Assembly (NCBI GenBank): GCA_021805865.1
Contig: JAJZDX010000001.1
Location: 62,001-126,000 of the forward strand
Source: Pseudomonadota bacterium
GTDB lineage: Bacteria; Pseudomonadota; Gammaproteobacteria; Steroidobacterales; Steroidobacteraceae
DNA: 64,000 nt
Reading direction: 5' to 3'
The position numbers and the translations under genes are program-made. Each line of letters opens with the position of its first letter. Positions within the stretch are counted from its first letter, which is position 1. Shown here one piece after another: positions 56,626 to 63,071 of the stretch. The notes beneath the pieces are model-generated. The model saw nothing but the letters and a program-made list of their open reading frames with translations. It was not told the origin of the DNA and made no database searches.

Positions 56626-58845
56626 TCAAGGGTTTTCCGAATTCGAATCCTGCTCGTCAAAATCGTCCTCGGTCCGCCCGTCGCGCGCATGCGCGGCGAT
56701 CGTGCGGCTGACACGGGTCACGTCCGGCAGGCGGCGGATGACACGCATCACGCGCGCCAGCTGCTTGCGATCGCGCACCTTCAGCTCGAACGTGAGGATC
56801 GAGGCATCGCCTTCCTGCTCCTCGATCGAGACATGATGAATGTTGGTATCGGCGCTGGCAATGGCCGCCGCCACCCTGGCGAGCACGCCGGTGCGGTTGA
56901 CCACGTACACGCGGATCTCCGAGCTGAACAGCCGCTCCGGCGCGCTCTGCCAGCTCACCGGCAGCCACTTCTCGGGGTGCTTGCGATAGTCCTCGACGTT
57001 CACGCAGCGGTCGCGGTGGATCACCACGCCGCGCCCTGCCGAGAGGAACGCGAACACCGGGTCGTTCGGCAGCGGGAAGCAGCAGCGCGCGTAGGTGACC
57101 AGCAACCCCTCGGTGCCGGCGATGGCGAGCGGCAAAGGCGTGCCTGCACCCCTCTCCGGCGCCGCGCCGGGCAGCAGGCGGCGCGCCACGAGCGGCGCCA
57201 GGCGCTCCCCGAGGCCGATCTTCTCGTACAGATCGTCGATGTTCTTCATGCCGAGCTCGCCCACGATCGCCTCGCGGGTCTCCGCATGGACGTCCTCCAG
57301 GGACAGATGAAACTCGGCGAGCGCCTGCGAGAGCAGCCGCTGGCCGAGCTCGATCGCCTCGGTGCGCCGCAGGCCCTTCAGGTAGTGGCGGATGGCGCTG
57401 CGCGCCTTGGCGGTGACGACGAAGCCGACCCACGCGGGATTGGGCACCGCGCCCTTGGCGGTGATGATCTCCACCGTCTGGCCATTGCGCAGCACGGTGC
57501 GCAGCGGCGTCAGTCGCCGGTCGACCTTGGCCGCGACGCAGCGGTTGCCGACATCGGTGTGCACCGCGTAGGCGAAATCGACCACCGTCGCGCCGCTCGG
57601 AAGTCTCAGGATCTTGCCCTTGGGAGTGAAGACATACACCTTGTCGGGGAAGAGATCGACCTTGACGCTCTCCAGGAACTCCTCCGAAGTGCCGTCTTCC
57701 TGAAGCTCCACCAGCCCCGACAGCCACTCCCGCGCGCGCTCCTGTTGCATCGACTCTTCACTGCCGCCGGATTTGTATTTCCAGTGCGCGGCGATGCCGG
57801 ATTCGGCCACGCGGTCCATGTCCTCTGTGCGGATCTGCACCTCGATCGGCACGGCGTTGGGACCGAAGAGCATCGTATGGAGCGATTGGTAGCCGTTCAC
57901 CCGCGGGATGGCGATGTAGTCCTTGAACCGGCCGGGCATGGGCTTGAACACCGAGTGCACCACCCCGAGGGCGCGGTAGCAGGTGTCGAACTCGTCGACG
58001 ATGATGCGCAGGCCGTAGACGTCGACGATCTCGGCGAGCGAGGCGCGCTTGCGCAGCATTTTCTTGTAAATGCTGTAGATGTGCTTCTCGCGCATCTCGA
58101 CTCGGGCGCGGATGTCCCGCTTCTCGAGCGCGGCGGACAGCTGCCGCGCGATCTTCTTCAGGAACTCCTTCTGGTTGCCGCCCGCCTTGCGCAGCGCGCG
58201 CTCCAGCACCCGGTAGCGCTGCGGATACAGCGCCTGGAAACCCAGCTCCTCGAGCTCGAGTTTCAGGCTGTACAGGCCCAATCGCTCGGCGATGGGCGCA
58301 TAGATGTCCAAGGTCTCGCGCGCGATCGCGCGCCGCCGGTGCGGCGGCATCGCGTCGATGGTGCGCATGTTGTGCGTGCGATCAGCGAGCTTGACCAGGA
58401 TGACGCGCAGGTCGCGCACCATCGCGAGCAGCATCTTGCGGAAGGATTCCGCCTGCGCCTCCTCGCGGCTCTTGAACTGGATGGCATCGAGCTTGGTCAC
58501 CCCGTCGACCAGCTCCGCCACATCGGCGCCGAAGCGCGCGGCCAGCTGATCCTTCGGCGTCGGAGTATCCTCGATGACGTCGTGAAGGATGGCGGCGACG
58601 AGCGTGTCGGGATCGAGATGCAGGTCGGCGAGGATCGCCGCGGTGGCCACGGGGTGCGCGATGAAAGGCTCGCCCGAGAGCCGCTTCTGCCCCTTGTGGG
58701 CCGAGGCGCCAAACTCCGCAGCTTCGCGTACGCGCTCGACCTGCTCCGGCGGCAGATAGCCGCCGACCGTAGCCAGCAGCTCCTTCAGCCCGGGAGTACG
58801 CCTTCCGCCGGGAAGCAGCCCCAGGAGAGAAGACGCATAGTCCAT
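56626..58845 (-). CDS. spoT: Bifunctional (p)ppGpp synthetase/hydrolase SpoT
   Basis: SpoT makes and degrades the stringent response alarmone (p)ppGpp. The 739-aa protein has the HD hydrolase domain with FIAHPVATA and LHDVIEDT (about residues 60-95), then the synthetase domain with [20 protein letters not shown]. The RFKD (RxKD) sequence is typical of bifunctional enzymes as opposed to RelA. TGS follows ([29 protein letters not shown]), then helical and conserved-cysteine regions, and a C-terminal ACT domain. The conserved YARCCFPLP block is present. It is 30 bp after rpoZ and 11 bp before ridA. Confidence 0.96.
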
Positions 58846-58875: not shown

Positions 58876-59163
58876 TCAATCTCCCAGACCAAACTGCGGA
58901 GCACGGAAGGTGGACTGCATGTCCAGCTCCGCAACGGCCGGGGCGGCCTCGGCCGCCGGCGGCTCGGGCTCACGGAGCATATCCACCGTGACGTTGCCGG
59001 CGGCGATCTCGCGCAACGCGACGACGGTCGGCTTATCGTTCTCGAGCGGCACGGTTGGCTCGGCGCCATTGGCAATGCGTCGGGCCCGCTGGGCCGCCAG
59101 AATCACCAGCTGGAAGAGGTTATCGACGTTTTGCAGGCAGTCTTCGACGGTGATTCGAGCCAT
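58876..59163 (-). CDS. rpoZ: RNA polymerase omega subunit
   Basis: RpoZ binds the beta-prime subunit and is part of the ppGpp site. The 95-aa protein begins [20 protein letters not shown] and has [12 protein letters not shown] and the [16 protein letters not shown] block typical of gammaproteobacterial omega. The C-terminal 30 residues are Ala/Pro/Glu-rich, as in longer xanthomonad-type omegas. It lies between the rdgB-gmk fusion (75 bp upstream) and spoT (30 bp downstream). Confidence 0.95.
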
Positions 59164-59238: not shown

Positions 59239-60477
59239 TCAGGCCAGCAGCCGCTTGAGGAGCGGGGCCAGATCCGGCCGGCTCGCCAGGAGCGCCTCGC
59301 CGCCGCCGCCCACGATCCGCATCAGGTCCGCCACCGCACGCTCGAAATCGTCGTTCACCACGACGTAGTCGAATTCATTCCAATGGGACATGTCGCTCAC
59401 TGCGTCGCGCAGCCGGCGGACGATCACTTCGGTGGAATCCGTGGCCCGTCCGCGAAGCCGCTGCTCCAGGGACTCCCGGGACGGCGGCAGCACGAAGACG
59501 GTCAGGCAGGAGGGCATGGCGGCCCGGACCTGCCGCGCGCCCTGCCAGTCGATCTCGAGCACCACGTCCCTGCCCTGCGTGAGCTTCTCCTCGACCGGCT
59601 CACGGGCGGTGCCGTAGCAATTGTCGAAAACCCGGGCGTGCTCCAGGAAGGAGCCTGCGTTCACCATCCTCTCGAATTCCGCCACGGTGACGAAGCAGTA
59701 CTCCCGGCCTGGAATCTCGGTGGGGCGCTGGGGCCGGGTAGTGTGCGAGATGGACAGCTGCAGCATCGGCATGCGCTGAAGCAGCTCCCGGACGAGCGAA
59801 GTCTTGCCGGCGCCGGAGGGGGCGGCCAGCACGAACAGCCGGCCCCGCGCCCCGGACCTGCCGGATGGCTCGCCGGGGGAGTGCTCGAAGAGCGCGCGGG
59901 CACCGCACGCCAATGCCCGCAGGGCCTGCCCGCGATGGCTGACCGCGTTCTTTTCGCCCGCATCGAGCTCGGCCGCGGTGCGCTGCGAGCCGGCCGGCAG
60001 AAAGATCGGGTCATAGCCGAAGCCTCCCGAGCCTCGAGGCGCCTGCGCGATCCGGCCTTCCCATGTCCCGTGCGCGATGAGCGGCTCGGGATCATCGTGA
60101 CGCCGGACCAAGGCGATCACACACTGGTAGCGGGCACGTCGGCGCTCCTCCGGCACCGCCTCGAGGTCGGCCAGGAGCTTGCGGAGATTGTCCTCGTCAC
60201 TGGCTCCCTCGCCCGCGAAACGGGCGGAATACACGCCCGGCCGGCCGTGCAGCGCATCCACTTCGATGCCGGAATCGTCCGCAAGCGCCGGCAATCCGGT
60301 GACTCGCGCGGCATGGCGGGCCTTGAGCAGTGCGTTGTCGACGAAGGTCGTGCCGGTCTCCGGGGGCGGCGTTATCCCGAAGGCACTCTGAGGGACGAGC
60401 GTGAGCCCGTGCGGGGCCAGCAATGCGCCGATCTCCCGCAGCTTGCCGGCATTGCCGCTGGCCAGGATTATTTTCAT
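59239..60477 (-). CDS. Fused XTP/dITP pyrophosphatase (RdgB) - guanylate kinase (Gmk)
   Basis: One continuous 412-aa frame covers two enzymes usually encoded by separate genes. Residues 1-198 are RdgB, which hydrolyses dITP, dXTP and ITP: SGNAGKLREI, ADDSGIEVDALHGRPGVYSAR, GGFGYDPIF and SHRGQALRAL are all in place. Residues about 213-412 are guanylate kinase, converting GMP to GDP: P-loop APSGAGKT (219-226), SHTTRPQRPTE, GREYCFVTVAEFE, VVLEIDWQGARQVR and the RLRGRATDSTEVIVRRL lid. A short linker rich in Gly, Ser, Pro and Arg (199-212) joins them. No stop codon lies between. A GTG at 59832 could start Gmk separately but would trim its first strand. All catalytic motifs look intact in both halves. 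Confidence 0.88.
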   Translation of the reverse strand: MKIILASGNAGKLREIGALLAPHGLTLVPQSAFGITPPPETGTTFVDNALLKARHAARVTGLPALADDSGIEVDALHGRPGVYSARFAGEGASDEDNLRKLLADLEAVPEERRRARYQCVIALVRRHDDPEPLIAHGTWEGRIAQAPRGSGGFGYDPIFLPAGSQRTAAELDAGEKNAVSHRGQALRALACGARALFEHSPGEPSGRSGARGRLFVLAAPSGAGKTSLVRELLQRMPMLQLSISHTTRPQRPTEIPGREYCFVTVAEFERMVNAGSFLEHARVFDNCYGTAREPVEEKLTQGRDVVLEIDWQGARQVRAAMPSCLTVFVLPPSRESLEQRLRGRATDSTEVIVRRLRDAVSDMSHWNEFDYVVVNDDFERAVADLMRIVGGGGEALLASRPDLAPLLKRLLA

Positions 60478-60571
60478 GTGCTGCGCGCGGGACGCACGGC
60501 ACTCGCCGAAGCGCAAACCGCGTACGGATGGCGAGGCTGTGCACCGGTAAGCGACACCATCGTAGCCTCGG

Positions 60572-61291
60572 TCACAGCTCCAACGCCTGCCCCTGCAGGG
60601 AGAACAGCTTCTCGATGCCGCCGGCGGCGAGCGCGAGCATGGTGTCGAGTTCGTGCCGGCGAAACGCGTGCCCCTCGGCGGTGCCTTGCAGCTCGATGAA
60701 GGCGCCGCCGTCGTTCATCACCACGTTCATGTCAACCTCGGCCTGGGAGTCCTCCCGGTAATCGAGGTCCAGCACCGGGGCCCCGCCGACGATGCCAACC
60801 GAGATCGCCGCCACCTGGCCGTGCAAAGGGCTGGCTGAGATCAGCCGCCGCTTGGCGAGCAGCCGGCATGCCTGGGCGAGCGCCACAAAGCCGCCGGAGA
60901 TGGAGGCGGTGCGCGTGCCCCCATCGGCCTGCAGCACATCGCAGTCCACGGTAATGGTGCGCTCGCCGAGGGCCTTGAGGTCGGTCACCGCGCGCAGCGA
61001 GCGGCCGATGAGCCGCTGAATCTCCAGCGTGCGGCCGCCCTGCTTGCCGCGCGCCGCTTCCCTCGCCGAGCGGGTGTGGGTGGAGCGCGGCAACATGCCG
61101 TATTCGGCTGTGACCCACCCCTGGCCCTTGCCGCGCAGAAATGCGGGCACGCTCTCCTCGATGCTGGCGGTGCACAGCACCTGGGTGTCCCCGAACTCGA
61201 CCAGTACGGCGCCTTCGGCGTGCTTGCCGAAGCGGCGCGAAAAGCTCACGGGCCGCATTTGATCGGGGGAACGTCCGCTGGGTCGGATCAT
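60572..61291 (-). CDS. rph: Ribonuclease PH
   Basis: RNase PH trims tRNA 3' ends phosphorolytically. The 239-aa protein starts with [19 protein letters not shown] and has [54 protein letters not shown] and the final [20 protein letters not shown], all standard. Full length indicates an active enzyme, unlike the truncated rph of E. coli K-12. Order rph then rdgB (here fused) is common. It starts 82 bp after the PP2C gene. Confidence 0.96.
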
Positions 61292-61373
61292 GTCTCTACG
61301 TCTCTCTACCGTTGTCCGCACTGGTCATCAGGCTGCGCCGTCGTTGGCTGCACGACAGCTCCGGTGTCTCGCA

Positions 61374-62150: not shown

Positions 62151-62210
62151 GTGTTAAGCTTCGGGGTCCGCTTTATAGCATTCCAGGGCGCCGTCGGCGT
62201 AGCGTTTACC

Positions 62211-63071
62211 ATGATTGCCAGCATGACAGGCTTTGCCCGGCGCGAGGCTTCCGGCCCCTGGGGGACGCTCGTGTGCGAGCTGCGCAGCGTCAATCACCGC
62301 TTCCTCGAGGCCGGCTTCCGCCTGCCCGAAGAGCTGCGCTCCCTCGAGGGCGAGCTGCGGCAGCGGCTCGCGCGCGATATCCGCCGCGGCAAGGTCGACT
62401 GCACGATCACCTACCGGGCCGCTCAGGGGGCGGGCAGCCTGGAGGTCGACCCGCAGGTGCTCGAGCGACTCACGGCCCGGCTCGATGACCTGGAACGGGT
62501 CATTCCGGTCGGCTCGGTCAACCTGCTCGAGGTTCTGCGCTGGCCCGGGGTGCTGAAGGACGTGACCGCGGGCGGGGAGGAGCTGCTGGGCGCGGCCCGG
62601 GCGCTATTCGATGGCGCGACGGAAGAGCTCAAGGCGGCCCGGGCACGCGAGGGGCAGAAGCTGCGCGAGGTGCTCGAGCAGCGCTGCGGCGGCCTGGAGG
62701 CGCTCGTCAAACAGGTACAGGCGCGGCTGCCCGAGATCCAGGCGCGGCTCACCAACCGGATGCGCGAGCGGGTCAAGGAGCTGGCCTCCGCCGTGGATCA
62801 GGAGCGCCTGGAGCAGGAAATCGCGCTGCTGCTGCAAAGGCTCGACGTGGACGAGGAGATCGAGCGCCTGACAGGGCACATCTCGGAGGTGCGACGTGTC
62901 GTCGCCGCCGAGGAGCCCGCCGGCCGGCGGCTCGACTTCCTGATGCAGGAGCTCAACCGCGAGGCCAACACCCTCTCCTCGAAATCCCAGGACCTCGAGA
63001 CCACCCGTACCGCGGTGGACATGAAGGTCACCATCGAGCAGATGCGCGAGCAGGTGCAGAACGCCGAATAG
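62211..63071 (+). CDS. yicC: YicC-family endoribonuclease
   Basis: YicC proteins are a widely conserved stress-related endoribonuclease family. The 286-aa protein begins MIASMTGFARRE, with the family-typical SMTGFAR, then LVCELRSVNHRFLE, RRGKVDCTITY, and the C-terminal DUF1732 part with RLDVDEEIERLTGHI and KSQDLETTRTAVDMKVTIEQMREQVQN in blocks. The ATG at 62211 gives the normal start; the second ATG at 62223 (MTGFAR) is also possible. It is divergent from the PP2C gene by about 60 bp. In many gammaproteobacteria yicC, rph and gmk are neighbours. Confidence 0.94.
   Translation: MIASMTGFARREASGPWGTLVCELRSVNHRFLEAGFRLPEELRSLEGELRQRLARDIRRGKVDCTITYRAAQGAGSLEVDPQVLERLTARLDDLERVIPVGSVNLLEVLRWPGVLKDVTAGGEELLGAARALFDGATEELKAARAREGQKLREVLEQRCGGLEALVKQVQARLPEIQARLTNRMRERVKELASAVDQERLEQEIALLLQRLDVDEEIERLTGHISEVRRVVAAEEPAGRRLDFLMQELNREANTLSSKSQDLETTRTAVDMKVTIEQMREQVQNAE

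Follow-up and report, generated by a model that had tools for sequence, protein, structure and literature searches.

The minus strand of the window, the 64,000-nucleotide stretch of DNA analysed here, encodes an RdgB/HAM1 pyrophosphatase and a guanylate kinase (Gmk), purine-nucleotide enzymes that usually occur separately, as one protein. The fusion is real and not an artefact. It goes back to a single fusion event and is present in every examined species (30) of one gammaproteobacterial clade. Judged from sequence, it is very probable that one gene fusion produced a bifunctional two-domain enzyme, in which a flexible linker of about 10–20 residues would hold together two co-produced activities.

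The fused gene and its neighbours

The locus comprises the following features.

59239..60477, minus strand: fused rdgB-gmk coding sequence of 412 codons followed by TGA; 28 orthologous fused genes are likewise intact
59905..60477, minus strand: RdgB/HAM1 (XTP/dITP pyrophosphatase) domain, residues 1–191; Pfam match at residues 3–190, TIGR00042; best PDB match E. coli YggV/RdgB (1k7k)
59848..59904, minus strand: variable linker, residues 192–210; pLDDT below 50 at residues 199–209, mean pairwise identity 25%
59242..59847, minus strand: guanylate kinase domain, residues 211–412; Pfam match at residues 212–389, TIGR03263; best PDB match 2an9
60572..61321, minus strand: rph (RNase PH), upstream neighbour in the same direction; TIGR01966, 369.9 bits
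61374..62150, minus strand: PP2C-type phosphatase gene, in the inverted block; PF13672 above cut-off, NF033484 at 134.2 bits, below its cut-off of 230, and gene order
62196..63071, plus strand: yicC, divergent from the block; PF03755 and PF08340 above cut-off, and gene order
58876..59163, minus strand: rpoZ (omega), next gene downstream; TIGR00690 above cut-off; follows gmk in most, not all, relatives
56626..58845, minus strand: spoT/rsh; TIGR00691, 775.2 bits, and gene order

The PP2C phosphatase gene, rph, rdgB-gmk, rpoZ, and spoT all lie on the minus strand, with yicC divergent from them. Between 58800 and 62300, neither a sigma-70-like promoter consensus nor a terminator consensus was detected. 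The N-terminus of the RpoZ encoded in the window (58876–59163) reads MARITVEDC, a motif that belongs to ppGpp site 1 of proteobacterial RNA polymerase.

The fused frame extends from the ATG at 60477 to the TGA stop at 59241–59239, and the plus strand of 59239–60477 is also an open frame. The longest open reading frame reaches further upstream, to a TTG at 60516 (425 aa). This start is possible, but the product of the ATG at 60477 already begins at the start of the matched RdgB domain: in the alignment with the deposited E. coli RdgB chain, its residue 2 pairs with residue 25.

The original prediction of one uninterrupted 412-codon frame spanning both enzymes is confirmed, the frame being intact and both families scoring above their cut-offs. 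Pfam Ham1p_like (PF01725) matches residues 3–190 with 224.4 bits against a cut-off of 22.5, and the RdgB half also passes TIGR00042 (181.4, cut-off 145.35). Guanylate_kin (PF00625) matches residues 212–389 with 175.6 bits (cut-off 25.2), and the Gmk half passes the equivalog model TIGR03263 with 235 against 160.45 bits. It is distinct from PhnN, for which it scores 53 against a cut-off of 156.

The catalytic motifs of both enzymes, predicted to be intact, are indeed preserved, with residues that are invariant or nearly so in 29 fused proteins. The RdgB/HAM1 family is characterized by the motifs SGNxxK, ETGxTFxxNAxxKA, DDSG, GGFGYDPxF, and KNxxSHRxxA, the roles of whose residues are known. N9, K12, E40, K52, D67, D68, S69, F153–D156, K176, H181, and R182 are invariant in 29/29 fused proteins, and S7, G8, and G11 are conserved in at least 90% of them. 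Guanylate kinases have a corresponding set of motifs with known residue roles: the P-loop APSGAGKT, SHTTR, GREY, YGT, and EIDWQGA. Each of these is invariant in all 29 fused proteins, and the domain aligns to a solved Gmk structure.

The window genome (4.68 Mb, 83 contigs, 98.75% complete) has a single PF01725 match, the fused RdgB half, and a single PF00625 match above the cut-off, the fused Gmk half. A weak match on contig C82 was considered as a second guanylate kinase and rejected, as it scores as PhnN (TIGR02322, 167.3 against a cut-off of 156). Among 14 control genomes, the RdgB family is present in all and the guanylate kinase family in 10.

Distribution of the fusion

Within the genus of the window genome, 30 of 58 species carry the fusion (29 intact, one split over two contigs), 23 have separate genes, and five are unscorable. 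All listed genus genomes are multi-contig drafts, 54 of the 58 having given a match; the unscorable ones are the four without a match (63–75% completeness) and G061, which holds a 42-residue fragment. In the split case (G019), the fused frame continues through the linker to the contig edge, where the gene is broken. The intact fused genes encode proteins of 408–435 residues and account for 29 of the 49 loci in the genus where rdgB and gmk are found in the same orientation on a single stretch. The junction was read in 20 of the 23 separate-gene species; in G004 and G009 the genes are not adjacent, and G015, at a contig end, was scored from the match listing alone.

Outside the genus, the matches listed for the family (217 genomes), order (396), class (369), and phylum (398) include no full-length one. 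The four sets share genomes, and each contains the window genome; the family and order sets also contain other fused members of the genus, and the order, class, and phylum sets are samples. A fused protein should outrank single-domain matches in these searches, while a very divergent fusion could escape the matches listed. Furthermore, no fusion is found among 80 named loci, the best 80 of 588 matches in the genome collection. Four of these best 80 contain both RdgB and Gmk matches, in every case on opposite strands. A candidate second fusion in Micromonospora sp. ATA32 (L103), with residues 2–287 covered, was rejected: its RdgB frame stops after 207 residues, with no in-frame guanylate kinase behind it.

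A single origin

We placed the fusion on a tree built from the flanking proteins only (SpoT, RNase PH, YicC, PP2C, RpoZ, and RidA). The tree contains 57 of 64 rows; G016 and G024 were dropped for having too few columns, and five distant outgroup rows were omitted. All 30 fused species lie on one side of a single branch, which has 100/100 support and appears in 100% of 200 bootstrap trees. An earlier quick tree of 63 rows gives the same grouping.

The original prediction named relatives whose separate genes are divided by a stop at this junction as a refuting observation. Such relatives do exist, yet all 21 separate-gene species of the genus that the tree includes fall outside the fused clade. 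With unfused outgroups and a single clade of fused species, the distribution indicates that the fusion was gained once, and no loss is seen. Support for the placement of the clade's sister group is weak (80/48).

Gene order and a proposed block inversion

Fourteen genomes of other genera or families served as the outgroup. An old order, rdgB−, rph−, PP2C−, yicC+, gmk+, is seen in all 10 outgroup loci where a single stretch contains both the block and gmk, with two exceptions in detail: G218 has no PP2C match, and about 6 kb separate yicC and gmk in G111. Genus loci containing the block have a PP2C-type gene between yicC and rph, as do 10 of the 11 outgroup loci with these two genes. In three outgroup sequences read by eye (L151, L158, and L161), the end of yicC overlaps the start of gmk as ATGA.

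Within the genus, rdgB and gmk are co-oriented in 49 of the 50 loci that have both genes on one stretch, and yicC, where visible, points away. This is the arrangement that inversion of a block from rdgB to yicC would give, and we infer that such an inversion of the rdgB-rph-PP2C-yicC block put rdgB upstream of gmk. Two large genomes deviate from it. In G009 (L129) the block keeps its old orientation, and yicC and gmk are about 5 kb apart; in G004 (L127/L128) rdgB and gmk sit on separate contigs. Since both genomes nest within the genus, a reversal or a second rearrangement is needed.

Downstream of gmk, rpoZ and spoT follow in 7 of the 10 outgroup loci. The contig ends there in G159, and G194 (L161) and G198 (L162), from one sister genus, show yicC-gmk as usual with no rpoZ or spoT match in the next 7–8 kb. 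The gmk-rpoZ-spoT neighbourhood is old, though not universal.

Separate genes in the sister species

The unfused sisters have the same gene order as the fused species (YicC−, PP2C+, RNase PH+, RdgB+, Gmk+, usually then RpoZ+ and SpoT+), but their two enzymes are encoded in two frames. In 16 of the 20 separate junctions read, the rdgB stop overlaps the gmk start as a 4-nt ATGA, which sets the start of gmk. Overlaps of this type are reported to couple translation tightly, according to excerpts of PMC10666635. The other four junctions are those of G032, with a short gap, G077 and G078, with gaps of about 200 nt, and G060.

An exact TATATT precedes the gmk ATG in 17 of the 20 junctions, namely the 16 with ATGA and G060; examples are L141 (G064), L125 (G001), and L133 (G020). 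The spacing to the ATG is 7 nt in 6 species and 8 nt in 11. The hexamer is read in two rdgB frames, giving Tyr-Ile in some species and Val-Tyr-Ser/Phe in others, which suggests that the DNA and not the peptide is conserved. It arose in 9 of 10,000 shuffles of the separate junctions. These junctions are not independent, since the tree-placed species of the 17 fall in one clade apart from the fused one (G024 is in neither tree).

The TATATT before gmk is a conserved DNA element with a putative function, and its spacing would suit the −10 box of a leaderless gmk transcript. The pattern TATATT-N7/8-ATG is rare, not clearly above controls, and no general leaderless signature: it occurs 7, 2, 3, and 5 times in G000, G001, G064, and G002, against 5, 2, 0, and 4 for the reversed pattern and 3, 2, 3, and 2 for a spacing of 17–18 nt in the same genomes. 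G060 (L180) has the usual TATATT and ATGA, but behind them come a short frame and a TGA, and gmk probably starts anew at a GTG further downstream.

The fused junction

The ATGA stop/start overlap is absent from the window junction, and TATATT, with at most one mismatch allowed, occurs in none of the 29 fused junctions. The gmk start codon is gone in the fused genes, and no internal start is common to all 29. The GTG at 59832, which had been named as a possible site of initiation, is the codon of Val216, within the first Gmk strand. It is a GTG in 21 of the 29 fused genes, is absent in 8, and follows a Shine-Dalgarno-like GAGG in 1 of the 21; we therefore reject it as a conserved start. Isolated start candidates occur in the linker, an ATG at residue 201 after AGGAG in L122 and a GTG at residue 208 after GGAGG in L015 and L016. 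L018 has an ATG at residue 206 that lacks a Shine-Dalgarno-like motif.

The junction measures 99, 102, 105, 108, and 111 nt in 1, 6, 6, 5, and 11 species, respectively. At least five changes in length are placed on the tree, all multiples of three; five frame-keeping indels would have a chance of about (1/3)^5 = 0.004 if the frame were ignored. Mean pairwise amino acid identity among the fused proteins is 76% for RdgB, 25% for the linker, and 79% for Gmk. In 14 chosen close pairs, dN/dS is 0.09–0.36 for RdgB and 0.07–0.35 for Gmk, and both domains are under purifying selection. The linker gives values of 0.05–1.69 in the 12 of 14 pairs that are calculable, which are noisy over 16–19 codons.

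An AlphaFold2 model based on 51 aligned sequences has a mean pLDDT of 88 and a pTM of 0.53. The last RdgB helix spans residues 181–197 and the first Gmk strand residues 214–218, and pLDDT stays below 50 over three or more consecutive residues only at 199–209. The domain boundaries originally proposed, 1–198 and 213–412 with a 14-residue linker, are thus about right. We read the model as two well-formed domains on a flexible tether, whose relative placement and packing carry no confidence.

Probable origin and consequences of the fusion

The comparison of gene orders points to a block inversion that would have set rdgB against gmk. The rdgB stop would then have been lost, fusing the frames, and gmk would have lost its own start signals. 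Each Gmk chain would from then on be made with an RdgB chain, and gmk expression would depend on rdgB. The RdgB domain is predicted to hydrolyse (d)ITP and XTP to the monophosphate and the Gmk domain to make GDP and dGDP, the two halves probably working as they do when alone. RdgB forms dimers; the fused RdgB probably still dimerises, carrying Gmk along. Most likely, the fusion would oblige the cell to make the two enzymes 1:1 and in the same place; substrate channelling and a ppGpp circuit are less likely effects. The products of RdgB (IMP, dIMP, and XMP) are not the standard substrate of Gmk, which makes classical channelling unlikely. Gmk is essential in bacteria, and with the gmk start gone the fused state would be hard to reverse.

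A functional synergy, in which RdgB placed beside Gmk cleans IMP- and XMP-derived triphosphates as a local quality control of the guanylate pool, appears unlikely. The occurrence of the fusion in all 30 species of the clade and the purifying selection on both domains speak for it. Moreover, according to excerpts of PMC13266583, by-products of nucleotide kinases can include inosine di- and triphosphate; of the two references cited there, one deals with human erythrocyte guanylate kinase. However, the linker is poorly conserved and modelled with low confidence, and the model has no confident contact between the domains. The absence of any full-length match among those listed outside the genus (217, 396, 369, and 398 genomes in overlapping sets) gives no sign of recurrent selection. 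Retention is also expected anyway if splitting the gene leaves an essential Gmk with no start. It is distinctly improbable that the fusion is a self-cleaning guanylate kinase, whose tethered RdgB would remove non-canonical triphosphates arising from the kinase's own occasional use of IMP or XMP. Were this true, the fused chain would lower ITP, dITP, and XTP pools, and mutation, more than two separate enzymes.

We also give little credence to one frame with two products, in which separate RdgB and Gmk would arise because translation starts a second time close to the junction or because proteases cut the linker. The linker is predicted to be flexible, and the fused genes have some in-frame GTG, TTG, or ATG codons near the junction. 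However, these starts have no member common to all genes and are only sporadically preceded by Shine-Dalgarno-like motifs; initiation at codon 216, which is not GTG in 8 of 29 genes, would cut into the first Gmk strand. The TATATT and ATG start of most unfused sisters are missing as well.

The original prediction further proposed that, next to rpoZ and spoT, the fusion could link the quality of the purine pool and the supply of GDP to the making of (p)ppGpp, here by the adjacent SpoT. The adjacency of gmk, rpoZ, and spoT prompts this reading, but the neighbourhood predates the fusion and also occurs in relatives that lack it (7 of 10 outgroup loci and most of the unfused loci in the genus), and therefore says nothing about the fusion. 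In addition, proteobacterial GMK is reported not to be inhibited by (p)ppGpp in excerpts of PMC6783271. We regard such coupling as highly improbable. Finally, the probability that a sequencing, assembly, or binning artefact removed the junction stop is virtually nil even with multi-contig drafts throughout the genus, and a missed stop or indel is excluded, as 28 further species share the same intact frame, the 29 having five junction lengths and all belonging to one clade.

Relation to known enzymes

The bifunctional enzyme favoured here combines two known families. Its first half resembles RdgB/HAM1/ITPA proteins (PDB 1k7k and 2pyu) over the full domain and in the motifs, including the C-terminal SHR motif, but no stop follows the domain and a kinase continues the chain. 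The second half has the P-loop and other conserved motifs of bacterial guanylate kinases (PDB 2an9 and 1s96) and passes the TIGR03263 cut-off; in contrast to these, it has no separate start codon and follows RdgB and a linker. The MAGUK family, represented among the PDB matches, likewise has a GK fold as part of a longer chain. The GK-like domains of MAGUKs carry SH3/PDZ or similar partners, whereas the fused Gmk has an intact P-loop and a nucleotide pyrophosphatase as its partner. Each of the 57 PDB sequences listed matches one half only.

No earlier description of an RdgB-Gmk fusion was found in the open-access PMC literature, in agreement with the statement in the original prediction that no such enzyme was known. 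The one paper with both gene names, PMC3814617, mentions them in its available excerpts among the purine-metabolism genes that are linked to a further gene; it does not present them as fused. We consider the fusion a real but modest new enzyme architecture, an enzyme gene fusion for which automatic annotation may exist. Both enzymes are widespread, yet no fused form is listed outside the genus. The sister species display adjacent, overlapping, and unlinked states, and so offer a stepwise view of how inversion, overlap, and loss of start signals may make one enzyme from two housekeeping genes. The clade also offers a natural test of whether a house-cleaning pyrophosphatase benefits when it is joined to a purine nucleotide kinase.

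In the first-branching subclade of the fused species, comprising six species (L018, L019, L022, L121, L122, and L123), a variable insertion lies in the Gmk domain, a short way ahead of its C-terminal end. The insertion sits near the C-terminal tail that, according to excerpts of PMC6783271, contacts the lid of the neighbouring Gmk subunit.
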